Shown here piece by piece: positions 1 through 41,711 of a stretch of DNA of 64,000 nt. The translations under genes and the position numbers were made by a program. Source of the stretch: Bolinopsis microptera (Eukaryota > Ctenophora > Tentaculata > Lobata > Bolinopsidae); NCBI RefSeq assembly GCF_026151205.1, contig NC_087073.1:1180001-1244000 (forward strand). Reading direction: 5' to 3'. The notes beneath the pieces were generated by a model that saw nothing but the letters and a program-made list of their open reading frames with translations, ran no database searches and had not been told where the DNA came from. Every line of letters begins with the position of its first letter. The first letter of the stretch is position 1.

Positions 1-1499
1 AGGTGTACTAAGTTTAAATATTACTAGGCAGGCTGAGCGAGCAAACTCAAGAAAGGCGTGCTCAGAAAGTAGATTACATTTACTGTTGGTCATTTCATAA
101 AAATTGTCGCCAATACGAACAAAGCCTGAATAGATAGATTGGCCGGACTTAGCTATGTATGCAACAGTTTCGAACCTCACCTGGCTATCAAAATAAGAGA
201 CATCAAAATGTGAACAAACGCCATTAAAATACTTATCATCATCAGGCTGAGTAAGAATAATGAAGTCTACCATGGAATTCTGAGATTGCAAGCAATTATC
301 TAGACCGATTCCCATATTTAAAGAGGTTGCTTTAGATTCTATCAGCAGTACACCAAGCTTCTTCAGATCAGGAAGAAAACAGATAGAAAAGATCGAGCAG
401 GGGTCGGATGTCGAACCGCTAGCATCTGAAATTTTCTTATCGATCTTCTTCTTCATCCTAAAATGTACTAACTGGTTGTAGGGGGTCTTGCCACAGACAA
501 AAGAAAGCAGTTCGTGACATAAACAAGTCTCCTCATCAAGTATGGGTTCACCTATACTACTTAGTGACACCGTATAAACAACAGAGTTAAGGGCTGACGA
601 ATCAGAAGAGGGATCTTGCAGAAGAGGCAGCGGGTGAGGAGATTTCAAGTCACTCGTTGAAGGAGTGTCAAAACGGGTTGAATTTGAAGACGTTTTTTCA
701 ACACCCTTCCGGACTAGAAATCCCAACTCATCTACCACACACTCTTCTCCTACATTTTTCTCAACTCGACTTTTCCAAGCATCGTTTATCTTCTTGTTGT
801 GGACACTAGTAAGATACGATACAAACAATATGTGCTGTTCAGGACTCATCTCATTGCAAAAACTTTTTGTGAGCGCAAGGACGTGGTTCTGCTGTTCTAC
901 TACTGACGTATTTAAATAGGCTCCTAGATTAGTACATTTAACAGACCTTAAGTACGTGTCGACTAAAGTTTGATTGGACTCATGGAAGATGTCAAACAGC
1001 ATTAGAACAGATGGTAATAAGCTTATAGGATGAACTGAAGTGTGGTCGTAACTACTTATATCAAGCTGACAGGTTGTGTATGTGTTATGATTAAATATAG
1101 CTGTTTTACGACCATCTTTGTACATTTCCGACTTTGGGCACTCGGGGTCACCTAAACGACCCCGGTATGGTCTACAAAAACCTGGATAATTTCCTTCCAT
1201 GTGATTGCCCCAAGTCGTTGCTATGTCGGAAAAATTAAAGCTAGGTTGAACTTGAAACGAAGTTATAAGGTTAGCATAGTCGGCCACTGATTCGGGCATT
1301 GTAAGGAACTTAATACCATAGCACACACCATGGGGACAGAATGCTCGTAAGACACCTCCAGATTTTCCAGTGAGCTTGGTAAAATTCTTGCGAACTACTG
1401 AATAAAGTTGGGTATTACCTTCTAGGTCTATAAGACGTGCAACCATGTGGCTCTTGCCTCCACGTGTTTCAATATCAAGTGACTTACAAATATCTTTAA
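1..1499 (-). pseudogene. KDZ-like transposase, C-terminal part (separated by a MITE)
   Basis: Reading the minus strand from 1495 down to base 1, one frame stays open with no stop for about 498 codons. It continues the frame of the large gene at 1737-4887 if the MITE and one TTAA are removed. The first residues (LKDICKSLDI, GGKSHMVARLIDL) look like a SAP-type DNA-binding helix pair. Next comes AFCPHGVCYGIKFL, a block typical of KDZ (Kyakuja-Dileera-Zisupton) transposases, then NTSVVEQQNH, another block of that family. The last ~60 codons (about bases 1-180) resemble the end of a ubiquitin-specific protease (YIAKSGQSIYSGF, then GDNFYEM), but the usual catalytic His of the GHY box is replaced in GF. 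The gene runs off the window, so the true end is not seen. The transposase assignment is from memory of family motifs; the protease reading is inference. Confidence 0.62.
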
Positions 1500-1732
1500 C
1501 CCATTAGGGACGATAGGGTCGTTTTTATGACCCACCTTTTCTAGACGAAAAACCAAATTATTAAACGCTATAACGAATCTATAGCACATATACTCAAAAT
1601 TTATTGGGCTTCATTATATGTAGCCCAATAAATTTTGAGCATATATGCTATAGATTCGTTATAGCGTTTAATAATTTGGTTTTTCGTCTAGAAAAGGTGG
1701 GTCATAAAAACGACCCTATCGTCCCTAATGGG
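1500..1732. mobile_element. piggyBac-type palindromic MITE
   Basis: A 233-bp element starts CCCATTAGGGACGATAGGG and ends with its reverse complement. TTAA lies directly on both sides (1496-1499 and 1733-1736), which is the target duplication of piggyBac elements. The two arms are about 110 bp each and differ at only about two positions, around a short AT-rich centre near 1614-1624. The element encodes nothing. It sits inside the coding frame of the KDZ-like gene, and the host frame is restored when element plus one TTAA are removed, so the insertion is a clean disruption. The near-identical arms suggest a recent event. Confidence 0.92.
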
Positions 1733-4700
1733 TTAAGCTGCTTATATGAATTTGTAGAATTCACCAGTTGTTCTATGCGTTCTAATGGCAGTTTGATTTC
1801 TTCAGCTTTATCATTAGCAAGGAGGGGCCGTGTGTATGGATCTATACTACTAAAATTTTGAGAACTGACAATAGGTGGAAGTGTCTGACCTTTTTTCATG
1901 GAGAAGTGCTTAACATTGCTACTGTAATGAGGAGATTTCTTATCAAGATATGACCTAGATAGATTGTGCTGTGAACAATTTAAATGCATTGCTGAAGAGC
2001 TAGAATACTCATGGTTAGTTACTTCACCAGGTTTAACATCAAAACAAACACTCCTTATTACATCGTACGTTAAATAAACAGGAAAATGGCCACATCTATA
2101 ACAATTAAGAGTTTTATCAAGATTCAAATCCTTTAAGGCCATGTATGCTTTAACAGCGTCAAGTAAGAGGTGGATGTTGTATTTAACGTCGGTCATAACT
2201 GACATTATCTCAAAAAAAGCAGTCAAAGAAGTGTTCTTGATCCAAGCTGCGAGAGCAACTTCCATCAGAGAAATAGAGAAAAATGAATTATTATTAAAAT
2301 TGAAATAACCTTCTGAATACTCGGCATATCTATACCTCATGGAGCAAATAGGACAATTCTTAGTGACAACTTTAACACCTGTTTTCTTTTCATGCATGGT
2401 GAATATACAGCCACGGTTGCTCACGTCAAAGGTTACAAGATCAACATCAGTACATTTGTGACACTTTGTTTCAATCGGAGCAAACTCCGCCTTTGGTGAG
2501 TGATCCTTAAATCCAGTCACGTCAAAGGGTATGACTTTGTTCTTAAGTACATATTGCATCATCGCTTCTGCAAACATCAGTTCATTGGGGTCACTGTCAT
2601 CCTCGGGGCGTGACTCACCAATAACCGGATTAATCTCTGATGCGAGAACTGCAACTTTCCGATGAAGACAAGATTTGATGCCACACTCACATTTATGTGT
2701 TTTACTACACCTATCATAAGTAACTATTACACGCCCTAACTTACTGTAGTATTTCGGCTTCTCATCACCAGCAAACACACTATAGTAGATATATCGAGAA
2801 GTACTGCATATATCTACCATAGTGGGAATGTACTGCTTGATGACCGGAAGACCGAAATCCCTAGCTGTTTTACAAAAAGCCATTATGAGATTCTTATCAT
2901 CATCACCAAAACTATCGTATGTAAGAACACTATCAATTAAATCTGGCTGAACATTGAGGTTACGGTTTACACAAGCTAGTACGTGTTGACACAAAAAACC
3001 TGGATTTAAGCTACCGTTGTGGAAGTTGTAAAAATCACGACAAAGAGGTGCGGTACACTCCCAACCATTCTTATTATGAACTACATGAACTGGACTAGCG
3101 GGCCCCTGGGCGCACCGCCTAACAAGATACGTACCTGATGATGGACAAATAAGCTCCGCCTGAAGCAATTTTGTGGTATCGGCCTTGCCGGGGCGAGCAC
3201 TTCCAGACGATTCTACTCTGATTCTACACAGACCAACGTGATCATTCATTCGACAAAGAGATGCGTGGGACTTGTCGCAAACTGGACAATGATAGTGCTT
3301 CCTCTTACCACTAGAAGCCATAACAATGCAATTTGCAGACGTATCCCAGCATACTCTGGGTTGAGAAGAAGCAACATGCTGATCTCGATCAACCTCAGCA
3401 GTGGACGAACCAACATGCTGATCCCGCACATCAGTGGAAGAACTCGAAGACTGATCATGACCGACTGACTGTTCCCCATCAACCCCAGCAGAAATCTGAA
3501 CTGAGGGCTGACTAGGATCAATCACTGGAGTCGAATCAATCACTGGAGTCGAATCAATCACTGGAGTCGAATCAATCACTGAAGTCGAGGACAAAGATGG
3601 GGCTGTTATAAAACTTCGCCCGGCAGAACATTTTAACATATGCGTAACTACTCTCTTAAAATCACGGTATGAGTACGACTTACACAACAAGCAATGAAAA
3701 TGAAGTACACGAGTCGTTTTCACTCTAATACAAGATAAATTTCTACAAGTCATTTCACGTTTGTAAGACTTCAAAGAATCAACATCATCGGTTTTAAGAA
3801 CGTTTTCTATATGTTGCACAGAACCAAAGGGATGATTCGTGGATAGGTCCTGATCTAGCTCGTCAGGAGGAGAAGCAACAGGTTGATCCCGAACATCAGT
3901 GGAAGAACTCGAAGACTGATCATGACCGACTGACTGTTCCCCACCAACCCCAGCAGAAATCTGAACTGAGCATTGACCAGGATCAATCACTGAAGTCGAG
4001 TTAATCACAGAAGGCAAGTCATTCACCGAAATCGAGGCTAGTTTCTTAATCGAATCTAGACGGCTCTTCGAAACAGCTGGATCTGCTCTCTTAAAACTAG
4101 AGAACTTTGGAAGTTCAGAGGTTTCATCGAACTGTTTCGGGCCAGCCTGATCAGAGCATCTATACTTGGGTGGTTGCTCAAAATCATCGTCGGAATCTGT
4201 CAACGACGGTTCAGCTTGCTGCTTAGCTGACTGAGTCTGAAGCTTCTTCTTGAAAGCCTCACGAGCTGCTGCATCCTTGGATTTTTCTAAATCCAACATT
4301 TCTGCTGTTGTGAAAATTATGACAGAATACAATACATCTGGCCTAATCTTATCTACCGGAAGAAATATTGTCTGTAAAAATTTCAACAATTGATTCGAAT
4401 CTACTGAACGTCTAAAACTCGAAACGATTTCATTGTGGAGATTTTGGGACTCAAGAAGGTTAAACTTGATGGCTCTATCAGTGATAATACAACTATATAA
4501 CGACAACAGAGAATAAATAGAACCATCCTTATCAAGACTACTGTGATTAAAACCTTCGTAAACTTCTAACGTATGTTTCGCTGGAAAGAAATGTCTAAAG
4601 AATGTCTTATATTCAGTTAACAGAGGATAAATCATTTGAACATTTGAGCCACAGAATAATCTTACAGAGGGGTCCCTCGGGCTAACTTTAGCGTCAGATA

Positions 4701-4887
4701 CGAATACATAATTTCCACATTCTAGCCTAAGAACTACAGAGGAACATACTGTGAGGTCATCAGAATAATCATATGCGAGAGGAGGTAATTCGTCCTTAAT
4801 GTCATGGAAATAAATGCCAAATACGGAACCTAAGCTATGTGAATCACGAATAAGGTCAATGTAAGATGTGATGAGCTGTCGATCCAT
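1702..4887 (-). pseudogene. KDZ-like transposase, N-terminal 1,050 residues
   Basis: The frame of 1,061 codons starts at the ATG at 4887; host coding ends at 1733 and the last codons read into the MITE. No characterised N-terminal domain is recognised in residues 1-190. Residues 200-295 are charged and low in complexity. There are two Cys2-His-Cys fingers (C399/C402/H417/C420 and C534/C537/H550/C554). A SWIM zinc finger is clear: CECGIKSCLH at 733-742 (CxCx4CxH). CxxC pairs follow at 809/812, 845/848 and 929/932, with SEGYFNFNNNSFF at 858-870, a block I associate with KDZ transposases. A linker is internally duplicated (residues 302-335 and 457-490), and a 6-residue unit STPVID is repeated just before the second copy. 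Together with 1-1499 this would be a protein over 1,500 residues long. Its size, zinc ribbons and SWIM finger fit a KDZ element; terminal inverted repeats were not found. Confidence 0.7.
3517..3588 (-). repeat. 18-bp coding minisatellite (about 4 copies)
   Basis: The unit ATCAATCACTGGAGTCGA is repeated four times head to tail; the last copy has GAAGTCGA. On the minus strand it encodes the repeated hexapeptide STPVID in the linker between the two zinc fingers of the KDZ-like protein. Being a multiple of three, it changes length without breaking the frame. Confidence 0.9.
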
Positions 4888-5129
4888 CGATCCGACAAGT
4901 GATGGAGGACAGGGAGCAGAGATATACGTTACCGACCTAAGGAGGATGGTATGTAGGGTGTGTTGTCAAACAGAAAGTAGCAGAAAGCTACGTTTCCGAG
5001 CAAGGAAGAAGGGTCGAAGAAGTAGTAGTAAACTACGTTCCTGACTAAGGAATAAGGGGTAGGTGCTTTCGTGTTGTAACTGTCTGAGATGTTGTAGTGA
5101 AAGCTGTAAAGATGGTGGGTAAGATGAAT

Positions 5130-5980
5130 GATCCTCGTCGTGATATCCTTTATACCCCTTCGTCCGGTGACAAGGATAACAAGCTGATGCTGCTCAAGTA
5201 AGCATCATGCACGTGATCATTCTCTGATCGGATCTTGTAATTGTACAGTTCACGTCATTCAAACAGATCGTGTGGTATTAACTAGGGCCGTTGTTCGTGT
5301 TCTTATGGAATGTGGTATTAACGAGGGCCGATGTTCGTGTTATTATGGCATGTGGTTTTCATCGAACGTAGCTCACGTCATGAACAGATCATGTGGTATT
5401 AATTAGGGCTGTTGTTCGTGTTCTAATGGCATGTGGTATTTATCGAACAGTTCACGTCATGAACAGATCATGTGGTATTAATTAGGGCCGTTGTTCGTGT
5501 TCTTATGGAATGTGGTATTAACGAGGGCCGATGTTCGTGTTATTATGGCATGTGGTATTAACGAGGGCCTATGTTCGTATTATGGCACGTGGTATAAATG
5601 AGGGCTTATGTTCATCTACTAGGGTAACTGTACTGCTGGAAATAGTCAAAGAGAGGCCTGATGGGCGTGTTCTTATGGAATGTGGTATTAACGAGGGCCG
5701 AAGTTCGTGTTCTTATGGCATGTGGTATTGATGATGGCCGATGTTCATCTACTAGCGCTTTCTGTACTGCCTGGACAGAAAGCGCATCGACATCTAATAA
5801 TTATAAACCCCTTCGTCCGGTGGCGCAAACAACAAGCTAATTGCACCTACGCAGTTCACATCACTTGCAGAAGGGCATAGATCACCTATGCAGTTCACAT
5901 TTGCAGAAGGGCTCAGATCACATCACTCTCAAATGGCACCTATGCAGTTCACATCAATTCGGAGTGATAAAACCTGCACA
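5130..5980. repeat. Degenerate direct repeats upstream of the KDZ-like gene
   Basis: Short units recur throughout. GTGGTATTAACGAGGGCC followed by TGTTCGTGTT and TTATGGCATG occurs many times between 5270 and 5740, with spacing near 40 bases. ACCCCTTCGTCCGGTG occurs near 5155 and again near 5809, in both cases followed shortly by AACAAGCT. CTATGCAGTTCACAT occurs several times between 5840 and 5960. The stretch from 4888 to 5130 has only short related pieces (AGTAGCAGAAAGCTACGTT and variants). These could be subterminal repeats or the 5' flank of the transposon; no terminal inverted repeat was identified. Confidence 0.6.
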
Positions 5981-6129
5981 GGGCAAGAGAATGAGGAGTG
6001 ATAGACGTTGAATTGGAGTGTTTTTGTATATTTATGTTTATGAATGATATTAAATTGTTAGCTCATTATGTCACTTCTCTATTCGACGTCAATAACTACG
6101 GCTAGGGCTGCACACTTACCCCTCCACCA

Positions 6130-8453
6130 TACCAGATCGATTGATCTCAATTCTGTTCCAGAAACCAATATAGAACATTGCCCCCAGAGCCTTTTCTGAG
6201 CTTGCTAGGGCCACCAAACTTTTCATGGACACTCCTGGTATCAATACCAACAGACTCTGATCGGTTTCAACTCAGTTTAGGCGATTTTAGGGTAAAGTTC
6301 ATTTTTGTTCATTTCGTTCATTTCATGAACCAGGGGATCATTTGGCACTTCTGAGTGGCTGAACATGTTAGTAAACATACCCTTCCACCATACCAGATAG
6401 ATTTTAAGTCAACCCAGGCATAACTACTGCCCCAAAAGCCTGTCTCAAAGTTGTCTCAATTCTGTTCCAGAATCCCAACTACTCTGAAACCAAAATGGAA
6501 CATTGCCCCCAGAGCCTTTTCTGAGCTTGCTAGGGCCACCAAACTTTTCATGGACACTCCTGGTATCAATACCAACAGACTCTGATCGGTTTCAACTCAG
6601 TTTAGGCGATTTTAGGGTAAAGTTCATTTTTGTTCATTTCGTTCATTTCATGAACCAGGGGGGATCATTTGGCACTTCTGAGTGGCTGAACATGTTAGTA
6701 AACATACCCCTCCACCATACCAGATAGATTTTAAGTCAACCCAGGCATAACTACTGCCCCAAAAGCCTGTCTCAAAGTTGTCTCAATTCTGTTCCAGAAT
6801 CCCAACTACTCTGAAACCAAAATGGAACATTGCCCCCAGAGCCTTTTCTGAGCTTGCTAGGGCCACCAAACTTTTCATGGACACTCCTGGTATCAATACC
6901 AACAGACTCTGATCGGTTTCAACTCAGTTTAGGCGATTTTAGGGTAAAGTTCATTTTTGTTCATTTCGTTCATTTCATGAACCAGGGGATCATTTGGCAC
7001 TTCTGAGTGGCTGAACATGTTAGTAAACATACCCCTCCACCATACCAGATAGATTTTAAGTCAACCCAGGCATAACTACTGCCCCAAAAGCCTGTCTCAA
7101 AGTTGTCTCAATTCTGTTCCAGAATCCCAACTACTCTGAAACCAAAATGGAACATTGCCCCCAGAGCCTTTTCTGAGCTTGCTAGGGCCACCAAACTTTT
7201 CATGGACACTCCTGGTATCAATACCAACAGACTCTGATCGGTTTCAACTCAGTTTAGGCGATTTTAGGGTAAAGTTCATTTTTGTTCATTTCGTTCATTT
7301 CATGAACCAGGGGATCATTTGGCACTTCTGAGTGGCTGAACATGTTAGTAAACATACCCCTCCACCATACCAGATAGATTTTAAGTCAACCCAGGCATAA
7401 CTACTGCCCCAAAAGCCTGTCTCAAAGTTGTCTCAATTCTGTTCCAGAATCCCAACTACTCTGAAACCAAAATGGAACATTGCCCCCAGAGCCTTTTCTG
7501 AGCTTGCTAGGGCCACCAAACTTTTCATGGACACTCCTGGTATCAATACCAACAGACTCTGATCGGTTTCAACTCAGTTTAGGCGATTTTAGGGTAAAGT
7601 TCATTTTTGTTCATTTCGTTCATTTCATGAACCAGGGGGGATCATTTGGCACTTCTGAGTGGCTGAACATGTTAGTAAACATACCCCTCCACCATACCAG
7701 ATAGATTTTAAGTCAACCCAGGCATAACTACTGCCCCAAAAGCCTGTCTCAAAGTTGTCTCAATTCTGTTCCAGAATCCCAACTACTCTGAAACCAAAAT
7801 GGAACATTGCCCCCAGAGCCTTTTCTGAGCTTGCTAGGGCCACCAAACTTTTCATGGACACTCCTGGTATCAATACCAACAGACTCTGATCGGTTTCAAC
7901 TCAGTTTAGGCGATTTTAGGGTAAAGTTCATTTTTGTTCATTTCGTTCATTTCATGAACCAGGGGATCATTTGGCACTTCTGAGTGGCTGAACATGTTAG
8001 TAAACATACCCCTCCACCATACCAGATAGATTTTAAGTCAACCCAGGCATAACTACTGCCCCAAAAGCCTGTCTCAAAGTTGTCTCAATTCTGTTCCAGA
8101 ATCCCAACTACTCTGAAACCAAAATGGAACATTGCCCCCAGAGCCTTTTCTGAGCTTGCTAGGGCCACCAAACTTTTCATGGACACTCCTGGTATCAATA
8201 CCAACAGACTCTGATCGGTTTCAACTCAGTTTAGGCGATTTTAGGGTAAAGTTCATTTTTGTTCATTTCGTTCATTTCATGAACCAGGGGATCATTTGGC
8301 ACTTCTGAGTGGCTGAACATGTTAGTAAACATACCCCTCCACCATACCAGATAGATTTTAAGTCAACCCAGACATAACTACTGCCCCAAAAGCCTGTTCC
8401 AAAGTTGTCTCAATTCTGTCTCAATTCTGTCTCACTGTTCCAAAATTGTTCCA
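6130..8453. repeat. 325-bp satellite, seven tandem copies
   Basis: The anchor ACATTGCCCCCAGAGCC recurs at 6175, 6500, 6827, 7152, 7477, 7804 and 8129, giving spacings of 325, 327, 325, 325, 327 and 325. The 327-bp units carry two extra G in the run after ATGAACCAG. The first copy is partly diverged upstream and the last decays near 8400. Copies are nearly identical. Copies 2-4 and 5-7 have the same order of lengths, so the array also has a 977-bp three-unit period. Open frames inside it are by-products of the repeat. Confidence 0.95.
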
Positions 8454-8605
8454 AAATCTCGGATTCATGAACTCAATTAATTAGTGGGTAATAAATTAAT
8501 TAATTAGTGGGTAATAAGAACTTATATATTACACATTCATAGGTTTTAAAACATTGCTGACTACTTTTAACCTTTATGTGATCTTATAAATGTTTTTCAT
8601 TTCAG

Positions 8606-8720
8606 TCGTGCCTGTCTATTTTCAAGAACTTGGCTTCTCTGGAGAAATCGGTGGACACTTTTACCATAGAATTAAAGTTCGTGGAAGGAGAACTTGTCTT
8701 CAGTCTCAATCACAGACACG
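8606..8720 (+). CDS. RAD9: RAD9 checkpoint clamp subunit, internal exon a
   Basis: RAD9 is a subunit of the 9-1-1 (RAD9-RAD1-HUS1) ring, a PCNA-like clamp loaded at damaged DNA in the nucleus to activate the ATR checkpoint. This exon follows the acceptor TTTTTCATTTCAG (ends 8605) and ends before GTTATT. It encodes SCLSIFKNLASLEKSVD and 22 further codons and aligns without gaps to the RAD9 segment SFLSVFRSLAMLEKTVE of vertebrates. Length is 115 bp: it starts in phase 0 and leaves one base over, which exon b (11198-11297) completes as GGA. Exon c is 13494-13611. Together the three exons give 111 residues, about positions 80-190 of a ~390-residue protein, covering the end of the first PCNA-like domain and the start of the linker. 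Upstream exons (the start codon) and the second clamp domain were not found in this window. The match is to family sequence recalled from memory; the reading frames and splice phases are seen directly. Confidence 0.9.
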
Positions 8721-8753
8721 GTTATTATTATTCTGGTGTTATACATTATCTAA

Positions 8754-8842
8754 ATACATTATATACATTATATACGTTATATACATTATATACATTATAT
8801 GCATTATATACATTATATACATTATATACATTATATACACTA
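8754..8842. repeat. 9-bp microsatellite (ATTATATAC)n
   Basis: About ten head-to-tail copies of ATTATATAC, with one GTTATATAC and one GCATTATATAC variant, start about 30 bp after the donor of RAD9 exon a. The array is therefore inside the first RAD9 intron seen here (8721-11197). Confidence 0.9.
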
Positions 8843-9503
8843 GCAGGAACCCGTCTAACCCTAAAATGGTGTCAAGACTCAAGAGACTAAATAAATTATT
8901 ACCTATTTAATTCGCGTTTTTGACACCACTTGGGGGTCCAAATTTTGGGCACTAAAATTTTTATTTCTTGGCCAATTTTTAATTCTTTAACGGTTTTTGC
9001 GGAAAATCGTGTTAAAGTTGATGCCGTGGTGTCAGTAAAATGGTACGGACATATATCGTCTCGCTTTATATATAGCAAGATTAGTTGATAATAGTCATCA
9101 AATCCTATGATAACTAAAACAAACTGGGATACTTCTAGTGTGTCAGTGTGGACCACAGTGTGGCACTTACAGTTACAGTTACTATACGGTTGATAGATGA
9201 AATTTCACATTCTTGTCAATATAATTGTGACAGCTTATTTTTTAACAATCTTATAAATGACTCCTGATTGTTCAATAAACAAGTTCGACAGAGCAAGATA
9301 TTGAAAATGAAAGCAGACCGGATCAGTGTCCGATCGACTCCCAGTTGGCTCCTAGTTTGTTAACAATAGAATGAATTACAGGAAAATAAATATTAATTAA
9401 ATATGAAATCTTACAAGGCAAAATAATTAAATATGAACGTAAAATTCATAAGCGTGGTTACAAACTATTGTATTCCGAATAAATGCGTCTGAAAATGAGT
9501 AAA

Positions 9504-9605
9504 GCAGCATTTAAGACACAACATTTCTCCCGATAAGAAATTTTAAAAACTACCTTATACGTGTAGAAATGTTGTGACAAATAAAACAGTGTGATGCTGC
9601 TTAAA
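9504..9605. mobile_element. Small foldback (MITE-like) element
   Basis: AAAGCAGCATTTAAGACACAACATTTCT is answered about 70 bp later by AGAAATGTTGTGACAAAT and, further out, ATGCTGCTTAAAGATC, so both an inner 11-bp and an outer 8-10-bp stem can pair. No target duplication is obvious. Confidence 0.5.
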
Positions 9606-10134
9606 GATCAATCACTGCTGTTTACCAGTTAGTGACTGTTCATAATATGTAAGCTCTCCTCGAAATATGTACTTGGGTTTATATACGCGCAACAATTTCG
9701 TCATCAAACGAAAGTTAAGAACTTTTGAGTTGCGGAGTTATTTGAAAAATTCCGGTCCTCGATAAATTGCGGTGACCTTATATTATAACTAGTGTAACCC
9801 GGCCTACGGCCGGGACTTCACTGCCGCAGTTAAAAAGGGTAGGAGTAATTACCCGCTGAGTCAAAACCCGGATTAGGCGAGCAATTCTATTCGGAGTGCC
9901 CTCACGTATCCAATAGTATGCTTAAAAAATTGTAATTCTTAATCAATAATCAATAGAGATTAACCCTGCACCACACCAGCCTATCATATTTGTCAACATG
10001 CATTACATTGTCGTATGAAAGTATGAACTCTCTCTACAGTCCAAACAGACCGTTTGAGCACTCCCTCCCCTAATAAGTTTATAGTATCATATGACCATGT
10101 AATATATACGCCATGTATATATACGCTACATATG

Positions 10135-10157
10135 CAGAGAGAGAGAGAGAGAGAGAG
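10135..10157. repeat. (GA)n microsatellite
   Basis: An uninterrupted run of about eleven GA dinucleotides in the RAD9 intron, next to an AT-rich TATATA tract. Confidence 0.95.
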
Positions 10158-10507
10158 CTAGCCCCGTAACTCTTGCCGTTCTTCTCAAGCCATTTTATGT
10201 AACATATTTTGTGGTACAAAACCATCAATTAAACCACTTACCACCGGCCGATTTTTATAAAATTTGCTTATTGGCTTCGTCAGAGTTTTGTCGGCACTAT
10301 ACCGAAAAAACCAGTCCCGTAACTATTACCGTTTTTTTTGTATAACCGTTCGGAAATTACACACGAACACACGATCAGACACACATTCTGGTGTTATTAA
10401 GTTGATTTAATTTATTCTGCTCGAGTTTGAAATCTAATCGTAGCTAAGTTTGCTGGTCGGAAGATAAGCACTAGTATTACCATCAGTGGGCAGTGGGCTC
10501 GCCCTCT

Positions 10508-11162
10508 ACCTAGCAACAGTAACCTAGCAACAGTAACCTAGCAACAGTAACCTAGCAACAGTAACCTTGCAACAGTAACCTAGCAACAGTTACCTAGCAG
10601 CAGTAACCTAGCAACAGTAACCTAGCAACAGTACCTAGCAACAGTAACCTAGCAGCAGTAACCTAGCAACAGTACCTAGCAACAGTAACCTAGCAACAGT
10701 AACCTAGCAACAGTAACCCAGCAACAGTACCTAGCAACAGTAACCTAGCAACAGTAACCTAGCAACAGTAACCTAGCAACAGTAACCTAGCAACAGTACC
10801 TAGCAACAGTACCTAGCAACAGTAACCTAGCAACAGTAACCTAGCAACAGTAACCCAGCAACACTACCTAGCAACAGTAACCTAGCAACATGACAGTATC
10901 CTAGCAACAGTAACCCAGCAACAGTAACCTAGCAACAGTAACCTAGCAACAGTGACCTAGCAACAGTGACCTAGCAACAGTGACCTAGCAACAGTAACCT
11001 AGCAACAGTAACCTAGCAACAGTAACCCAGCAACAGTAACCTAGCAACAGTAACCTAGCAACAGTAACCTAGCAACAGTAACCTAGCAACAGTACCTAGC
11101 AACAGTAATCTAGCAACAGTACCCAGCAACAGTAACCTATCAACAGTAACCTAGCAACAGTA
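10508..11162. repeat. 14-bp minisatellite (CCTAGCAACAGTAA)n
   Basis: About 47 copies fill the end of the first visible RAD9 intron. Frequent 12-bp units lack AA (CCTAGCAACAGT), and point variants include CCCAGCAACAGTAA and CCTAGCAGCAGTAA. The array stops 35 bp before exon b. Confidence 0.95.
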
Positions 11163-11197
11163 CTATGACTGTAATGTTACAACTCTTCTGATTTCAG

Positions 11198-11297
11198 GAA
11201 TAAAGAAGCAGTTCAACTTAACGTTCCAGGAATGCGAGGGACTTAGTGCTATCTTCAATAAAAACTCTTCTGTCATTCACATCGTCTCAGACCAAAA
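11198..11297 (+). CDS. RAD9: RAD9 internal exon b
   Basis: The exon lies between the acceptor CTTCTGATTTCAG (ends 11197) and the strong donor GTAAGT (11298). It encodes IKKQFNLTFQECEGLSAIF and 14 more residues, matching the RAD9 block THNLSFQDCESLQAVF. The other two frames contain stops. It begins with GA, completing the Gly codon left by exon a, and ends with AA, which exon c completes to Lys. It is only 100 bp long and is flanked on its left by a 650-bp minisatellite and on its right, after about 150 bp, by a 2-kb satellite. Confidence 0.9.
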
Positions 11298-11451
11298 GTA
11301 AGTGTTCACATTGAAACTTTCCGTCTATGTTTTTGTAAAAACTCTTGTTTTTATTCTGACAGCAACGTCATTTCTTTAAGTTCAGTTTGTTGTGACTAAG
11401 GTTCAGTGTTTATGTGACTTGAGTTAACTTGTAATTTATATAAATATATAT

Positions 11452-13462
11452 ATACTGTACTAGCATATAATACCATTATGCTACTACCAATACTGTACTA
11501 GCATATAATACCATTATGCTAGTACCAATACTGTACTAGCATACAATACTATTATGCTAGTACCAATACTGTACTAGCATATAATACCATTATGCTAGTA
11601 CCAATACTGTACTAGCATATAATACCATTATGCTAGTACCAATACTGTACTAGCATACAATACCATTATGCTAGTACCAATACTGTACTAGCATATAATA
11701 CCATTATGCTAGTACCAATACTGTACTAGCATACAATACCATTATGCTAGTACCAATACTGTACTAGCATATAATACCATTATGCTAGTACCAATACTGT
11801 ACTAGCATATAATACCATTATGCTAGTACCAATACTGTACTAGCATATAATACCATTATGCTAGTACCAATACTGTACTAGCATATAATACCATTATGCT
11901 AGTACCAATACTGTACTAGCATATAATACCATTATGCTAGTACCAATACTGTACTAGCATATAATACCATTATGCTAGTACCAATACTGTACTAGCATAT
12001 AATACCATTATGCTAGTACCAATACTGTACTAGCATATAATACCATTATGCTAGTACCAATACTGTGCTAGCATATAATACCATTATGCTAGTACCAATA
12101 CTGTGCTAGCATATAATACCATTATGCTAGTACCAATACTGTGCTAGCATATAATACCATTATGCTAGTACCAATACTGTACTAGCATATACAATACCAT
12201 TATGCTAGTACCAATACTGTACTAGCATATACAATACCATTATGCTAGTACCAATACTGTACTAGCATACAATACCATTATGCTAGTACCAATACTGTGC
12301 TAGCATATAATACCATTATGCTAGTACCAATACTGTACTAGCATAAAATACCATTATGCTAGTACCAATACTTTACTAGCATACAATACCATTATGCTAG
12401 TACCAATACTGTACTAGCATATAATACCATTATGCTAGTACCAATACTGTACTAGCATATACAATACCATTATGCTAGTACCAATACTGTACTAGCATAT
12501 ACAATACCATTATGCTAGTACCAATACTGTACTAGCATATACAATACCATTATGCTAGTACCAATACTGTACTAACTACTAGCATACAATACCATTATGC
12601 TAGTACCAATACTGTACTAGCATATAATACCATTATGCTAGTACCAATACTGTACTAGCATATACAATACCATTATGCTAGTACCAATACTGTACTAGCA
12701 TAAATACAATACCATTATGCTAGTACCAATACTGTACTAGCATACAATACCATTATGCTAGTACCAATACTGTACTAGCATATAATACCATTATGCTAGT
12801 ACCAATACTGTACTAGCATATAACACCATTATAATACCATTATGCTAGTACCAATACTGTACTAGCATATAATACCATTATGCTAGTACCAATACTGTAC
12901 TAGCATATAATACCATTATAATACCATTATGCTAGTACCAATACTGTACTAGCATATAATACCATTATGCTAGTACCAATACTGTACTAGCATATAATAC
13001 CATTATGCTAGTACCAATACTGTACTAGCATATAATACCATTATAATACCATTATGCTAGTACCAATACTGTACTAGCATATAATACCATTATGCTAGTA
13101 CCAATACTGTACTAGCATACAATACCATTATGCTAGTACCAATACTGTACTAGCATAAAATACCATTATGCTAGTACCAATACTGTACTAGCATAAAATA
13201 CCATTATGCTAGTACCAATACTGTACTAGCATAAAATACCATTATGCTAGTACCAATACTGTGCTAGCATAAAATACCATTATGCTAGTACCAATACTGT
13301 ACTAGCATAAAATACCATTATGCTAGTACCCATACTGTACTAGCATATAATACCATTATGCTAGTACCAATACTGTGCTAGCATATACAATACCATTATG
13401 CTAGTACCAATACTGTACTAGCATATTATACAGTACCATTATGCTAGTACCAATACTGTACA
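11452..13462. repeat. 38-bp satellite, about 52 copies
   Basis: The unit is TACCAATACTGTACTAGCATATAATACCATTATGCTAG, written here as two halves: TACCAATACTGTACTAGCAT then ATAATACCATTATGCTAG. It repeats through almost all of the second visible RAD9 intron (11298-13493). Each unit holds a perfect 10-bp inverted repeat, TACTAGCATA and TATGCTAGTA, so every monomer can form a hairpin. Variants differ mainly in the loop (ATACAATACC, AAAATACC, or a doubled ATAATACCATT). Confidence 0.95.
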
Positions 13463-13493
13463 CATAATACCGTTCTAATCCCATTTGTCCCAG

Positions 13494-13611
13494 GTTTCTA
13501 GGAGACTGCGTCGTACATTTCCCTACTAATGTGGCGGAGATAACCCTAAACGCTAAACATGACCACACGATGCTCAGTAACTATGTAGAGGAGGAGAGTC
13601 AGTACGGCAAG
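13494..13611 (+). CDS. RAD9: RAD9 internal exon c
   Basis: The exon lies between the acceptor CCCATTTGTCCCAG (ends 13493) and the donor GTACTG (13612). It encodes FLGDCVVHFPTNVAEITL and 21 more residues, matching the RAD9 segment VLGEAVLPFSPALAEVTL and the acidic EEE stretch after it (YVEEESQYGK here). The 38-bp satellite ends about 30 bp before it and the 10-bp satellite starts within 10 bp after it. A longer open frame continues into the repeat but is meaningless. The next exon, expected to start the second clamp domain, was not found between 16.9 and 18.7 kb. Confidence 0.88.
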
Positions 13612-13617
13612 GTACTG

Positions 13618-16600
13618 TTACAGAACATTACAGAACATTACAGAACATTACAGAGCATTACAGCGCATTACAGAGCATTACAGAGCATTACAGAACATTA
13701 CGGAGCATTACAGAACATTACAGAACATTACAGAACATTACAGAACATTACAGAGCATTACAGAACATTACAGGACATTACAGAACATTACAGAACATTA
13801 CAGAACATTACGGAGCATTACAGAACATTACAGAGCATTACAGAGCATTAAAGAGCATTACAGAACATTACAGAACATTACAGAGCATTACAGAGCATGA
13901 CAGAACATTACAGAACATTACAGCGCATTACAGAGCGTTACAGAGCATTACAGAACATTACAGAACATTATAGAACATTACAGAGCATTACAGAGCATTA
14001 CAGAGCATTACAGAACATTACAGAACATTACAGCGCATTACAGAACATTACAGAGCATTACAGAACATTACAGAACATTACAGGACATTACAGAGCATTA
14101 CAGAGCATTACAGAACATTACAGAACATTACAGAGCATTACAGAGCATTACAGAACATTACAGAACATTACAGAACATTACAGAACATTACAGAACATTA
14201 CAGGACATTACAGAACATTACAGAGCATTACAGAGCATGACAGAACATTACAGAGCATTACAGCGCATTACAGAGCGTTACAGAGCATTACAGAACATTA
14301 CAGAACATTATAGAACATTACAGAGCATTACAGAGCATTACAGAACATTACAGAACATTACAGGACATTACAGAGCATTACAGAGCATTACAGAACATTA
14401 CAGAGCATTACAGAGCATGACAGAACATTACAGAACATTACAGCGCATTACAGAGCGTTACAGAGCATTACAGAACATAACAGAACATTACAGAACATTA
14501 CAGAACATTACAGAACATTACAGAGCATTACAGAACATTACAGAACATTACAGAACATTACAGAACATTACAGAGCATTACAGAACATAACAGAACATTA
14601 CAGAACATTACAGAACATTACAGAGCATTACAGAACATTACAGAACATTACAGAACATAACAGAACATTACAGAACATTACAGAACATTACAGAACATTA
14701 CAGAGCATTACAGAACATTACAGAACATTACAGAACATTACAGAGCATTACAGAGCATTATAGAACATTACAGAGCATTACAGAACATTACAGAACATTA
14801 CAGAACATTACAGAACATTACAGAGCATTACAGAACATTACAGAACATTACAGAGCATTACAGAGCATTACAGAACATTACAGAGCATTACAGAACATTA
14901 CAGAACATTACAGAACATTACAGAGCATTACAGAACATAACAGAACATTACAGAACATTACAGAACATTACAGAGCATTACAGAACATTACAGAGCATTA
15001 CAGAGCATTACAGAGCATTACAGAGCATTACAGAACATTACAGAACATTACAGAACATTACAGAACATTACAGAACATTACAGAACATTACAGAACATTA
15101 CAGAGCATTACAGAACATTACAGAACATTACAGAACATTACAGAGCATTACAGAGCATTATAGAACATTACAGAGCATTACAGAACATTACAGAACATTA
15201 CAGGACATTACAGAGCATTACAGAGCATTACAGAACATTACAGAGCATTACAGAGCATGACAGAACATTACAGAACATTACAGCGCATTACAGAGCGTTA
15301 CAGAGCATTACAGAACATTACAGAGCATTACAGAGCATGACAGAACATTACAGAACATTACAGCGCATTACAGAGCGTTACAGAGCATTACAGAACATAA
15401 CAGAACATTACAGAACATTACAGAACATTACAGAACATTACAGAGCATTACAGAACATTACAGAACATTACAGAACATTACAGAACATTACAGAGCATTA
15501 CAGAACATTACAGAGCATTACAGAGCATTACAGAGCATTACAGAGCATTACAGAACATTACAGAACATTACAGAACATTACAGAACATTACAGAACATTA
15601 CAGAACATTACAGAACATTACAGAGCATTACAGAACATTACAGAACATTACAGAACATTACAGAGCATTACAGAGCATTATAGAACATTACAGAGCATTA
15701 CAGAACATTACAGAACATTACAGGACATTACAGAGCATTACAGAGCATTACAGAACATTACAGAGCATTACAGAGCATGACAGAACATTACAGAACATTA
15801 CAGCGCATTACAGAGCGTTACAGAGCATTACAGAACATAACAGAACATTACAGAACATTACAGAACATTACAGAACATTACAGAGCATTACAGAACATTA
15901 CAGAACATTACAGAACATTACAGAACATTACAGAGCATTACAGAACATAACAGAACATTACAGAACATTACAGAACATTACAGAGCATTACAGAACATTA
16001 CAGAACATTACAGAACATTACAGAACATTACAGAACATTACAGAACATTACAGAACATTACAGAGCATTACAGAACATTACAGAACATTACAGAACATTA
16101 CAGAGCATTACAGAGCATTATAGAACATTACAGAGCATTACAGAACATTACAGAACATTACAGAACATTACAGAACATTACAGAGCATTACAGAACATTA
16201 CAGAACATTACAGAGCATTACAGAGCATTACAGAACATTACAGAGCATTACAGAACATTACAGAACATTACAGAACATTACAGAGCATTACAGAACATAA
16301 CAGAACATTACAGAACATTACAGAGCATTACAGAGCATTACAGAACATTACAGAGCATTACAGAGCATTACAGAGCATTACAGAGCATTACAGAACATTA
16401 CAGAACATTACAGAACATTACAGAACATTACAGAACATTACAGAACATTACAGAACATTACAGAGCATTACAGAACATTACAGAACATTACAGAACATTA
16501 CAGAGCATTACAGAGCATTATAGAACATTACAGAGCATTACAGAACATTACAGAACATTACAGAACATTACAGAACATTACAGAACATTACAGAGCATTA

Positions 16601-16890
16601 CAGAGCATTATAGAACATTACAGAACATTACAGAACATTACAGAACATTACAGAACATTACAGAGCATTATAGAACATTACAGAGCATTACAGAACATTA
16701 CAGAACATTACAGAACATTACAGAACATTACAGAACATTACAGAGCATTACAGAGCATTATAGAACATTACAGAGCATTACGGAGCATAACGGAGCATTA
16801 CAGAACATTACAGAACATTACAGGACATTACAGAGCATTACAGAACATTACAGAACATTACAGAACATTACAGAACATTACAGAACATTA
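13618..16890. repeat. 10-bp satellite (CAGAACATTA)n, about 327 copies
   Basis: Period is exactly 10 bp for 3.3 kb, starting 7 bp after the donor of RAD9 exon c. Most units are CAGAACATTA or CAGAGCATTA, with rarer CAGCGCATTA, CAGAGCGTTA, CAGGACATTA, CAGAACATAA and CAGAGCATGA. Blocks of rare units recur in the same order: CAGCGCATTA followed by CAGAGCGTTA appears near 13921, 14261, 14441, 15281, 15361 and 15801, showing segmental duplication inside the array. Open frames through it encode only a repeated ITEHYR/ALQN pattern and are not genes. Confidence 0.97.
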
Positions 16891-17117
16891 CATAACATCA
16901 AAGAATAGTATAGAATATTCTGGAATATTCTAGAATTGTTGTCGGAATCACTATCGGGATATTTGTCGGAATTAAAAGAACGTCCCGATTCTTATTAATT
17001 GTACTGTGTCTGGAGACTTATAATTGTAGATCATAAATTCTTTGAAATCACGTGTTGATTGCAAAATTGTCTCCCAGACTACAGATCAGTCCATTATTAT
17101 ACATTATACCGTGTTTT

Positions 17118-17566
17118 AACTTGGCACTGTTCCAACTTGGCACTGTTCCAACTTGGTACTGTTCCAACCTGGCACTGTTCCAACCTGGCACTGTTCCAAC
17201 TTGGCACTGTTCCAACTTGGCACTGTTCCAACTTGGCACTGTTCCAACTTGGTACTGTTCCAACCTGGCACTGTTCCAACTTGGCACTGTTCCAACTTGG
17301 TACTGTTCCAACCTGGCACTGTTCCAACTTGGTACTGTTCCAACCTGGCACTGTTCCAACTTGGCACTGTTCCAACTTGGCACTGTTCCAACTTGGCACT
17401 GTTCCAACTTGGTACTGTTCCAACTTGGCACTGTTCCAACTTGGTATTGTTCCAACTTGGCACTGTTCCAACTTGGCACTGTTCCAACTTGGCACTGCTC
17501 CAACCTGGCACTGTTCCAACTTGGCACTGTTCCAACTTGGCACTGCTCCAACTTGGCACTGTTCCA
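17118..17566. repeat. 16-bp minisatellite (AACTTGGCACTGTTCC)n
   Basis: About 28 copies, with AACCTGG, GGTACTG and CTGCTCC variants. Because the period is not a multiple of three and contains no stop, several frames on both strands stay open over 450 bp; none is a gene. The 200 bp before it and the 600 bp after it hold a poly(T) run (17740-17755) and nothing else I can name. Confidence 0.95.
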
Positions 17567-18008
17567 GAAATAGAATGGACACACAGAGACTTAAAACACG
17601 ACACGTTTAGTCCACCCCCTACCGGACCCTGTCCATTGTCCAAGGTAAAGGGCTTGGTTGCTTGTCATTGCAAGCATGATTACAGGGTAAAGTGGTTGCT
17701 TGATTAAGCTGGCGAAGATAAGTTCACTCAGGCTAGTTTTTTTTTTTTTTTTTTTAAAATGCTCACAAACTGGCTAACGCTTAATCAGCAAATCAAGATC
17801 AAGTTATCTAATAACTATTCTAAACCTTGTAAAGCTCGAGGACGACCAGTCCTTGCAGCAAGCGAAGACTCCATGTGAAGTTTCCACAAACAGTGCCTCT
17901 TAATTGAAACCCTCCATTATTTAAGTATGGAGCCCCTGTCGTAGCAGGTAGCAAACCACTTGAATTATCTGAAACGTTAAAAGGATTTGTTTAGGTGTTA
18001 ATTAGATC

Positions 18009-18114
18009 GGGGGAGCCAATGACTTAAATGGCATACATTTTTATTGAGAAAATGGAAAAACTTTTGAGTAAATAATAGACATTTATTGCCATTTCCAGGT
18101 TATTGGCTCCCCCC
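18009..18114. mobile_element. 106-bp foldback element with GGGGGAGCCAAT ends
   Basis: GGGGGAGCCAATGAC at the left end is mirrored by GTTATTGGCTCCCCCC at the right end, and inner segments AAATGGCA and TGCCATTT also pair. It has the form of a small MITE; no clear target duplication was seen. Confidence 0.6.
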
Positions 18115-18705
18115 ATTTGACCGCTTTACCAACTGTTTGGTGGTGGTTTAAACATGTGAGATGCATATCATATAAACGTGTAAAATGTGACAACATCTTG
18201 AATAATAGTGTTTCATATTGCAATCAAACACAATAAGTATAAATCTAAAAATTCAAAAATTCTTGTAGTTTAGCGCACTGGCTTGCTTGGCGTCAACACA
18301 GTCTAACTTTGTTTATACTTTCTTACTTTATATTTATTTTAGAGTGGAATAATGTATAATAAAAACTTGAAATCTGTAAAATCGTATATAATATTTGCAC
18401 GCTATTTCCCGGCGGTCGTCAAAGGAGGCCTATATTTATGACCCCAAGATCCCACACGTTGACATAATAAAGCTATTCTACAGGTTTAAATCTAAAACTA
18501 GTATGAAGCCGGAAGAACTAATACAGTTATAATATCAAGAGATCTTTCAGTAACATAACGTAATCGAAACGTGGACTGCAATAAAATTAACAACGCCAAT
18601 ACAAATTGTTCAACCTGACCCGCGCCATTCATGATCAATTAAGCGAGCGTGTTTTTATTATTGGTAAACAAATTGAAAGGATCAAATGAAGTCCCTGTAA
18701 AGTTG

Positions 18706-19011
18706 TTAAATGGATAACGATAATTTTTTGATGTTCAGGGCAAAAAATCGATCCCTTAATATACAACTTAAAATGGTAAAGTACAAAGTGTCTGTAATTA
18801 AGAATCTCTGTGAAAACGTCATGTGTACTCCCAGGGGGACACCTTGTCTCAGAACACACCTCGCAATTGCGTTTATCAATGTATTAAGTTGCTCATAGTA
18901 CGGTATCTCATATTCTTTTGACTTTCGATGTGAGCAAAGCATTGAGTTTATTATCTGTTTATTAACGCCGATGGGTGAATCATCCACAAATCTCTTTCGG
19001 AACACTGACGT
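18706..19011 (-). CDS. Candidate last exon of an unidentified gene (E)
   Basis: An open frame of 101 codons plus TAA begins right after CGCGTTAG (acceptor, weak pyrimidine tract). It reads TSVFRKRFVDDSPIG at its start, then IPYYEQLNTLINAIARCVLR and TDTLYFTILSCILRD. Its start is phase 0, as is the end of candidate exon D (19279-19610), so the two can be joined. The product would be largely helical with hydrophobic segments. I do not recognise the family. Chance open sequence cannot be excluded. Confidence 0.28.
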   Translation of the reverse strand, partial: TSVFRKRFVDDSPIGVNKQIINSMLCSHRKSKEYEIPYYEQLNTLINAIARCVLRQGVPLGVHMTFSQRFLITDTLYFTILSCILRDRFFALNIKKLSLSI

Positions 19012-19278
19012 CTAACGCGACGATCGTTTCGAGTAGGATTGGTTCCTGAGCCGATTTCTTAACAATTGAAGCTCACGAAATGCGAGACAAACCCCTACTG
19101 CCTCCTTACCTTTACTGTGACAACAGTCCGTTAATCGATTTACATTTTGTTGCACTCTTATCAGCTGTAACAAACTTATTGCGATAAAGAAATAGAAGTC
19201 TCCATTGATCGTTGGTAGCCGATGTTATTATATACAACTGTAAAATGGACTAAGCCACAGTTGCACAACCATACTCAC

Positions 19279-25000: not shown

Positions 25001-25121
25001 TTTGTTTATATAAATTTTATAGATAAATTATTGTAGCTTCTATATTGTGTAAAATTTTACGGACGAAATGATCCCAGTTTTTAATACTTTCAACACTACT
25101 ATATAACAAATAATTTGAGGT

Positions 25122-26093
25122 ATGACACCCGGAGATATGACACGATCAAGAGATGTCAAGAAAAGTCCAGTGAAGGTCGATATGACAGCGGATAATGGAG
25201 AAATTGAAGAAGAAGAAGATCGTAGCTGTGAATGTAGAAGATATATTGCGGAGGAGTTTTCTTTGGCATGTGCAACTTGCGACATGTACTGGCACTACTG
25301 CTGTGTTGGGCTTACTGGATTAACGCAGGAAGAAGGTAACCACTTGACTAACTGGCGCTGCCAAAATTGCTTTATCTCTCCCCACATCAAGGGCACAAGA
25401 AGCCAGTCCACAAATCCAGACAGTGAAGAAACCAAGACCCTACGGAATGTTATTAGAGAAGAACTTGGTGCCCTTACTCCGTGTATTAGAGGAATTGTCG
25501 AAGATTCTGTGAGTCATACCAGTTCTTCTAATGATTCATCTGAAAAACCAAAAGAAATCACAAAAATTGTGAACCAGGCTTTCCAAACCTGGGCAGATGT
25601 TACTGCAAATAGTCAGAAGAAAGTTATTGAAGAAATGAGCCTACAGCAAGCTTCTCAAAGTGTTGTCAGTAAAGTTCAGTCAAAGATGCACACTGATGCA
25701 TATGAGCGAAATTTAAGAAAGCTCAATCTGTGTGTTTTGAATGTACCAGAGAGCAAGAAAACTAACTCCAAGCTACGCCAGGAAGAGGACTCGAAGTTCT
25801 GCAAGGAGACACTAAAGATTGAAAAAAGTGACTTTATCAGTTGCCATCGTGCAGGTAAAGTGGATCCAGGTAAGCCAGACTCCTGTCGGCCATTGATCAT
25901 CCAGACAGCTGACGAGGAGTCAGTTAACTATTATTCCAACCATGGCAAGGGCTGGAAAGAGTCATCATACTGGATAAATCTGGATCTCTGCAGAGCAGAC
26001 CGAGAGATCCGTTTTTTAGCCAGAGAAGAGAGGAAGAAGAGGCGGGAAGAAGCAGAGAAGGAAAAGACAGAGAAGAAGGTGGAGAAGAAGTAA
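25122..26093 (+). CDS. CR1-like LINE ORF1, PHD-finger protein
   Basis: 323 codons from ATG. A PHD-type zinc finger is visible with ligands C36, C38, C50, C53, H58, C61, C80 and C83 (CATCDMYWHYCCVG is the core). Residues 150-260 are rich in charged residues and probably form a coiled coil followed by an RRM-like trimerisation region (NLCVLNVPESKKTNS). The C-terminus is very basic and acidic in blocks (EERKKRREEAEKEKTEKKVE). PHD-bearing ORF1 proteins are known from CR1-like elements and are thought to bind element RNA in the retrotransposition particle. ORF2 starts 29 bases downstream. The frame is intact. Confidence 0.88.
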   Translation: MTPGDMTRSRDVKKSPVKVDMTADNGEIEEEEDRSCECRRYIAEEFSLACATCDMYWHYCCVGLTGLTQEEGNHLTNWRCQNCFISPHIKGTRSQSTNPDSEETKTLRNVIREELGALTPCIRGIVEDSVSHTSSSNDSSEKPKEITKIVNQAFQTWADVTANSQKKVIEEMSLQQASQSVVSKVQSKMHTDAYERNLRKLNLCVLNVPESKKTNSKLRQEEDSKFCKETLKIEKSDFISCHRAGKVDPGKPDSCRPLIIQTADEESVNYYSNHGKGWKESSYWINLDLCRADREIRFLAREERKKRREEAEKEKTEKKVEKK

Positions 26094-26122
26094 ATAGCAG
26101 TAACAAAGAATGTAGTCAGCCC

Positions 26123-28237: not shown

Positions 28238-28689
28238 TTTTAGGCATGGCTACCGATGAGTAATCCGTTGGAGTAAAGTCTGCCGGTGTCCTGGGTGTGA
28301 TGGATCTGAGTTAGATGGCAGGTTGTGGAGGTGGTAATCGTTTCTTCCTATTGCCCTGGTAGTCTTGTACTACCAGGGCTCCTGCGGTCTGGTACGAGGT
28401 TAGTTTTATTGTTAGAGATCTAGTGATGTTTGAAATTTATTAACTCCTTTTAGCTACTTCTCCTTTAGATAAGTATTGCATTCTTTTTTCTGCTATACAG
28501 TTCTTTACAACACCTCTGTTCATTATAATTCAAATTTTTTTTTTCACTCTGAACTATAAATCTCTGGCCTATTAACTGTTTCAGATCCAGATTGCTAGGG
28601 TTTACAACGGTGCCACTGAAACATCCTGCTGTTGATCTCTTATCCGGATCACCCAGTCTCCTCCCGATCCTCCCACACTTCACAACAAG

Positions 28690-30201: not shown

Positions 30202-30403
30202 TGTGGTAATTCAATTCAATATTTAAATTTTTCATTGTCTGCATCAGTATCCTATTGGATCTGATCATTTGGATGTTATTTATATGTATTCAAACGAAGT
30301 GATAGCATAAGGTATGTTACTTCATATTATAGCACAATACCTGACAAAACACAACGGCGAGACACAATTCTGTTAATAATATACTTTAAAAGTTTAAAGT
30401 TCT

Positions 30404-33910: not shown

Positions 33911-34325
33911 CTCATCAGTCTTATGAGTCTCAGAAATTTGTTTTTGTTGGTTACAATTCTGTCCGTCCAATTTCCTATCTGCTTTTCCTTTTCTTTTTTC
34001 TTTATCAGTTGTGACGGAATTGTAATGAACAAAATCCTTATAATTATTTATGATATGTTTGATTTCTTGTTAATGTTTGTCATTCAAATTTGGTAGACGG
34101 CCCCAACGTTAATGTGGCTCTTGCTATGTGTTGGTTCAGCCGAATTAATTATTATATAATCAAGTTTATTTTTCTCGTTAGTTGTCATCCGGCCAAACAT
34201 TAAGCAACTTATATTGCAGTACCATTTATCATTTAGTAATCAAAATATGTCATTGTAATTTTGCATGGCTGAAATGTAACGCTTGATTTATATATATAAT
34301 GATTAATTGAATTTTCAAATAAAAT

Positions 34326-40329: not shown

Positions 40330-40752
40330 CAGATCACAGGATTGTTATAGTTACGGAGACTGTTGGAAACGATGCAAACCAGGATCGGACTCCTATCAGA
40401 AATAGTCGACCACCGGTCCAGCCTCCCTCAAACTCAAATGCCCTACCACTACCCCAGACCACATCCACCTCTTCAGCCAGGAACAGCGCTCCCACTATAC
40501 CACTACCAGCAGTTCCTACCGCCTCAGAGGATACACTGCACGTGCCCGTTATTCCTCATGCCTCGTCTTAAATGTCCAGTCCATGAATCCTAGTGCATCA
40601 AGTGCGAGTATATGGGAAGTGCCAAAAATCTCAGCTCTTATTCAGGAGAAATCCAAAAACCACTCGTTACCGTTTATTGCACTTACGGAAACGTGGCTCA
40701 AGTCCTACATGTCAGACAAATACAAAATGTGCATCACCTCTTTCTCCTGCTG
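40330..40752 (+). pseudogene. LINE ORF fragment (endonuclease start), in duplication copy 1
   Basis: The plus strand reads a Pro/Ser-rich tail (VTETVGNDANQDRTPI on), stops at 40570, and in another frame resumes as WEVPKISALIQEKSKNHSLP and FIALTETWLKSYMSDKY, the start of a LINE endonuclease with its catalytic Glu in TETWLK. After ITSFSC the frame stops. It is a remnant of an element with overlapping ORFs. The Pro-rich part is outside the tandem duplication. Confidence 0.65.
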
Positions 40753-41640: not shown

Positions 41641-41669
41641 AGAAAATGAGTTATATAACTTGGAACTTA

Positions 41670-41711
41670 AACTAAGATAAATTGAGTATTTATACTCAAT
41701 TTATCTTAGTT
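41670..41711. repeat. Perfect 42-bp palindrome (20-bp arms)
   Basis: AACTAAGATAAATTGAGTAT, TT, then the exact reverse complement. The same palindrome is at about 42913-42954 in the second duplication copy. It ends 20-25 bp before the duplication breakpoint (ATATATATAT). Confidence 0.92.

Follow-up and report, generated by a model that had tools for sequence, protein, structure and literature searches.

Three short exons embedded in satellite arrays of the ctenophore Bolinopsis microptera raise two questions: which gene do they belong to, and are they part of this genome's main copy of it? The exons lie in a 64,000-nucleotide stretch of contig NC_087073.1 (assembly GCF_026151205.1; the contig is called C2 below, and the whole stretch, C2:1180001-1244000, is called the window), and a preliminary description made from the sequence had assigned them to RAD9. 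With a probability of roughly 0.85, the window holds exons 4–6 of a 3'-truncated RAD9 duplicate in an inverted segmental duplication. Exon 4 (window 8606–8720, 115 bp, phase 0 to 1), exon 5 (window 11198–11297, 100 bp, phase 1 to 2) and exon 6 (window 13494–13611, 118 bp, phase 2 to 0), all on the plus strand, are preceded by AG acceptors (...TTTCATTTCAG, ...TCTGATTTCAG and ...TTTGTCCCAG, respectively) and followed by GT donors (GTTATT, GTAAGT and GTACTG, respectively); their lengths, positions and borders had been described correctly to the base, and the phases given for them hold, the joined exons being open throughout their 111 codons. A search of this joined translation against RAD9 families, as had been proposed, matched the Pfam Rad9 family (PF04139, E 7.3e-21, 75.2 bits against a gathering cut-off of 25 bits), with residues 1–107 corresponding to profile positions 68–174; copy 1 exons 2–6 (see below) reached 148.2 bits. 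Rad9 was the sole Pfam family reported, with E up to 1 allowed for the window exons and up to 0.001 for longer joins of either copy. Among PDB sequences, four distinct human RAD9A sequences were matched (best E 5.4e-15, RAD9A residues 80–186), the four other listed chains having E values of at least 0.39. The alignment contains both expected motifs (NLTFQECEGLSAIF against NLSFQDCESLQAVF, and VAEITL against LAEVTL) and is nearly gapless over the predicted length of about 110 residues, with one 1-residue gap close to its end where none had been expected.

The genome (264,652,675 bases in 232 contigs) was then searched for further RAD9 sequences. Among eight candidates scored with the Rad9 profile, four places matched at E ≤ 0.001; three of these are on C2, the fourth on contig C6. 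The C6 match was rejected as a third RAD9 because it is PCNA (PCNA_N E 1.4e-39 versus Rad9 E 2.6e-6), a member of the same clamp superfamily as RAD9, which the Rad9 profile reaches weakly; PCNA, RAD1 and HUS1 all sit at loci other than this one, in line with the assignment of the window exons to RAD9. The 111-residue translation matched six places (all six candidates scored), namely window exons 4–6 and their counterparts on the minus strand at C2:1325406-1322073. Since this inverted copy repeats the exons together with their AG/GT borders, the window exons are not a product of chance. Reading of the two loci located exons 1–3 of the window copy (copy 1; C2:1168632-1168665, 1168973-1169043 and 1169163-1169291, plus strand), 10.7–11.4 kb left of the window, on the far side of both a KDZ-type transposon of 11.1 kb and a nested ankyrin-repeat gene, and those of the second copy (copy 2; C2:1327017-1326984, 1326676-1326606 and 1326486-1326358, minus strand). 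Copy 2 extends over C2:1327017-1318571, about 125,000 bases from copy 1 and in opposite orientation, with exon 4 at C2:1325406-1325292 (1 base different from copy 1), exon 5 at C2:1322862-1322763 (1 base different), exon 6 at C2:1322190-1322073 (identical) and exon 7 at C2:1318731-1318571. The exon 1 translation, MNCTAPGRHIK, occupies the place of what we take to be MKCLVTGGNVK in the human protein. Copy 1 encodes 189 residues and copy 2 at least 242; exons 2–6 of the former matched Pfam Rad9 with E 3.9e-43, exons 2–7 of the latter with E 6.8e-60. Copy 2 exons 2–7 align to residues 12–245 of human RAD9A (PDB 3a1j, 3ggr, 3g65, 7z6h; E 6.6e-47); unlike RAD9A, the window copy has nothing past exon 6, stops after 189 residues and carries introns packed with minisatellites and mobile elements. 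The identity, borders and phases in the preliminary description thus stood, but what it described are only exons 4–6 of a copy truncated after exon 6. Its refuting condition of a complete RAD9 gene elsewhere in the genome was borne out in part, by a fuller but perhaps still incomplete copy that has exon 7 and lies on the opposite strand of C2.

The two RAD9 copies face each other in the arms of an inverted duplication (about C2:1154175-1197566 and 1343248-1320171). After masking of tandem repeats, comparison of the arms gave 16 pieces of 154–2196 bases with 86–99% identity (only pieces longer than 150 bases were listed), running in inverted order from C2:1154175/1343248 to 1197103/1320485; farther out, three more pieces (92–94%) were out of order. 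Besides RAD9, both arms contain a zinc-finger frame, presumably of the C2H2 type from its cysteine/histidine spacing, a frame with a Pfam CHCH match (E 9.7e-7) that we assume to be COX19-like, and a frame with a PAPS_reduct match (E 1.6e-27) that we assume to be FAD-synthase-like. The zinc-finger frame is open over 341 amino acids in arm 2, and a 1-base gap, which could also be a sequencing error, breaks the arm 1 version, a point in favour of the truncated-duplicate reading. A 5.4-kb unit is repeated in tandem about five times at C2:1286501-1315357, immediately downstream of RAD9 copy 2, the repeats being close to 80% alike.

Exon 6 is the last RAD9 exon found in copy 1, and the cause of the truncation could be located. 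Homology to copy 2 ends at the end of an array of 16-bp units in intron 6 (window 17118–17566), and because the duplicated block ends at this minisatellite, copy 1 lacks exon 7 and everything after it; compared with the fuller copy, this loss is its disabling change. Copy 1 does not encode two complete clamp domains, since it ends at position 174 of the 253 of the Rad9 profile. The DNA past the breakpoint (window 17568–19200) is without RAD9 homology and is 87% identical to C6:13917412-13918995. No 16-bp array was found in the 2.4 kb read before this C6 relative, and C6 contained no RAD9 match besides PCNA in the genome searches with the Rad9 profile and the 111 residues. In copy 2, the 16-bp array reaches the exon 7 acceptor itself (...GGTACTGTTCCAG) and is interrupted by a 1.1-kb repeat element (ends CCAGGGGTGTAGGAA and TTCCTACACCCCTGG) with many relatives (77 match rows, from the best 40 of 569 candidates scored). 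The exon 7 protein matched a single place in the genome, which belongs to copy 2 (the one candidate was scored); this singularity is not absolute, as a missing match in a genome search does not show absence. That the window copy is a whole, working RAD9 gene with its last exons farther downstream in the spacer is extremely unlikely: long introns do occur here, intron 3 already having more than 18 kb of extra DNA, but homology to copy 2 stops ahead of the exon 7 found only in that copy, and a plus-strand scan of C2:1197000 to 1318570 for the stretch following exon 7 scored highest on part of a reverse-transcriptase frame.

A terminal exon past exon 7 was found for neither copy in residue, splice and similarity searches. 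The residue-pattern search returned two weak rows, and the splice-pattern search three AG-preceded rows (C2:1304784 to 1298841) without RAD9-like continuation. In ungapped scoring of both strands of the spacer, the best score (33) belonged to a reverse-transcriptase frame in the window; of the seven high-scoring rows for copy 2 whose contexts were inspected, none had an AG in the right phase, and four stretches read by eye did not contain the exon. A human RAD9 tail used as query had no match in the genome, an empty answer that here shows nothing. The C-terminal tail, which is too short and variable to be picked up by similarity, was not found in either copy.

Whereas copy 2 has an intron 3 of 951 bp, that of copy 1 measures 19,314 bp, the excess being due to the ankyrin-repeat gene and the transposon. 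The latter is a DNA transposon of 11,116 bp (C2:1177359-1188474, its right 8.5 kb being window 1–8474) with an 8-bp target duplication (AATTAATT) on both sides, a near-terminal inverted repeat of 22 bp (ATGAATCCGAGATTTTGGAACA) starting at position 7 of each end, and an array of 6.9 copies of a 325-bp unit close to the right end; copy 2 has an empty site at this position. Its open frame of 1087 amino acids from stop to stop (window 1702–4965, minus strand) matched Pfam CxC4 (E 1.8e-8), a cysteine cluster associated with KDZ (Kyakuja-Dileera-Zisupton) transposases. This cluster was the sole KDZ-linked match; no transposase domain proper was found in the frame at E 0.01 in Pfam. The target duplication of 8 bp and the inverted ends fit this group: PMC12730594 gives 8-bp duplications for Zisupton, a KDZ transposon, as seen here, and 7-bp duplications for Kyakuja families, in contrast to the transposon in intron 3.

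The ankyrin-repeat gene nested in the same intron (Ank_2 E 1.8e-150) has relatives at 4.40, 10.85 and 13.12 Mb of C2, all long matches lying on C2 (among the best 40 of 967 candidates). At C2:4407258-4410407, the ankyrin gene is joined to part of RAD9, namely the final 98 bases of exon 3 (129 bases in full) and the intron after it, through an intron/ankyrin junction identical to that of copy 1. Over 203 gap-free columns, this 4.41-Mb fragment stands alone against both copies at 22, agrees with copy 2 only at 6 and with copy 1 only at 2. A recent insertion of the ankyrin gene into copy 1 was therefore rejected as a simple story, as the fragment shares the junction yet is an outgroup to both copies; for the same reason a loss from copy 2 is more likely, suggesting that the presence of the ankyrin gene in this intron probably predates the inverted duplication, copy 2 having lost it afterwards.

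As the preliminary description had noted, the window exons are hidden between satellite arrays, the adjoining DNA being tandem repeat. Intron 4 contains arrays of a 9-bp unit (window 8754–8839; 86 bp versus 366 bp in copy 2) and a 14-bp unit (window 10508–11162; 655 versus 1417 bp), intron 5 an array of a 38-bp unit (window 11452–13461; 2010 versus 393 bp), and exon 6 is followed by an array of a 10-bp unit (window 13618–16898; 3281 versus 1377 bp) and the 16-bp array (449 bp in copy 1; 307 + 294 bp, in two parts, in copy 2), so that array length differs up to 5-fold between the arms. In copy 1, the arrays come to within 33 bases of the end of exon 4, 35 bases of the start and 154 bases of the end of exon 5, and 32 bases of the start and 6 bases of the end of exon 6. 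If the exon 6 donor were skipped, the frame (window 13468-13851) would run on through about 80 open codons reaching into the 10-bp array and so add decapeptide repeats.

In the nine aligned pieces of non-exonic DNA of the RAD9 part, 55 of 2213 bases (2.5%) differ between the copies, including two intron 4 pieces with 19/149 and 7/100 differences. Such a level can occur in heterozygous animals, and the coding frames look constrained in both arms, as would be expected if the arms were two haplotypes of one locus, misplaced in one contig in opposite orientation. We consider this improbable, as no gap (no N) was present in the 212 kb read over both arms and the spacer, the identity of the listed pieces ranges from 86 to 99% along the arms, and copy 1 is joined at window position 17566 to RAD9-free DNA with a relative on C6, which is unexpected for the second haplotype of a complete gene.

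Several observations weigh against a truncated duplicate in decay, in addition to the limit on the singularity of exon 7. Copy 2, although the fuller copy, may itself be incomplete, as nothing was found past its exon 7. Exons 1–6 of copy 1 have no stop, frameshift or lost AG/GT, and their differences from copy 2 form a pattern that looks constrained rather than decayed: 6 of 567 bases differ, all in exons 1, 3, 4 and 5, five changes being synonymous and one non-synonymous (S 124, N 443). Similarly, the FAD-synthase-like and COX19-like frames, open in both arms, showed synonymous to non-synonymous ratios of 9:3 and 8:0, respectively, and lean to constraint. Such a pattern is compatible with constraint acting on each arm, or with an origin of the arms from two alleles that had both been constrained before the duplication.

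Copy 1 might still be under selection and expressed as a short form of RAD9, about 190 residues long and comprising domain I and part of domain II, which is compatible with the anatomy of a truncated duplicate since it concerns the fate of copy 1. The six exons with their intact AG/GT borders speak for such an isoform, as does the 5:1 ratio of changes, a non-synonymous count this low having a neutral probability of 0.0025 for the pair of copies. For copy 1 alone, taken as one neutral branch, 8.9 non-synonymous changes are expected at the synonymous rate (P = 0.0013) and 5.5 at the rate of the nine non-exonic pieces (P of at most one, 0.026), but only 3.2, with an unremarkable P of 0.17, at the rate of a six-piece yardstick (28 differences in 1915 bases; six of the nine pieces, with exon 1 included as non-exonic). 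Two further points count against the isoform: should the arms stem from two diverged alleles, the constraint may be older than the duplication, and the differences polarised by the 4.41-Mb fragment fall six on copy 1 and two on copy 2. A possible end for the transcript is offered by the last unit of the 16-bp array of copy 1, which ends in TTCCAG (at 17567), a sequence occurring once in the array versus 25 TTCCAA, and is followed by AAATAG; a splice at this AG would give exon 6 plus one lysine (AAA) and then an immediate TAG stop. On balance the isoform appears unlikely, and it is more doubtful still that copy 1 is a selected half-clamp gene (domain I and part of II) spliced to the stop at the end of the array; if this were true, the half-clamp would compete for RAD1 or HUS1 with the full RAD9 and thereby tune the checkpoint. 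Judged from the sequence, copy 1 is most likely a decaying copy or the source of a truncated protein, and not the main RAD9 of the genome.

The partners of RAD9 were identified elsewhere: RAD1 at one place in the genome (E 5.5e-79, two candidates scored) and HUS1 as four exon matches (all four candidates) inside one 3.5-kb stretch of contig C1. Their presence makes a 9-1-1 clamp likely, and copy 2 would be its natural RAD9. The sequence itself shows the anatomy of the truncated duplicate, along with the second copy and its empty transposon site. The inverted duplication on C2 has the zinc-finger, COX19-like and FAD-synthase-like frames and RAD9 in each arm, the block in the window arm ending at the 16-bp minisatellite of intron 6 and thereby cutting off exon 7 onward. 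The ankyrin-repeat gene and the 11-kb KDZ-type transposon expand copy 1 intron 3 to 19.3 kb, and enlarged minisatellites occupy its remaining introns. As for function, copy 2 would serve as RAD9 in the 9-1-1 checkpoint clamp, together with RAD1 and HUS1, and copy 1 would yield either no protein or at most one of about 190 residues that is missing the tail and a large part of clamp domain II.

Beyond the RAD9 part, the window contains LINE-like frames (window 25119-35276), including reverse transcriptase with endonuclease frames at 26288-28237 and 30398-33910 and a GDSL-esterase frame at 28636-30201. A direct tandem duplication of 1.24 kb, 99.7% identical, was found at window 40491-42976. GIY-YIG matches under the Pfam cut-off were present at window 58693-59496 (minus strand) and 61509-62036 (plus strand), which we take to be probable Penelope-like elements in opposite orientation.

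In the literature searched, including passages of PMC12730594 and PMC3969565, no description of this locus was met, which does not show that it is unpublished. The locus is a case of ordinary genome evolution with unusually clear anatomy. For annotation, it means that exons of 100–118 bp amid kilobases of minisatellite are easily dropped, and that the RAD9 exons visible in the window are those of a truncated copy, the continuing exon lying on the other strand. The pair of copies provides a natural comparison, in which arrays have changed up to 5-fold in length around alignable non-exonic DNA of RAD9 that differs by 2.5%, and in which one intron array holds the breakpoint of the duplication.

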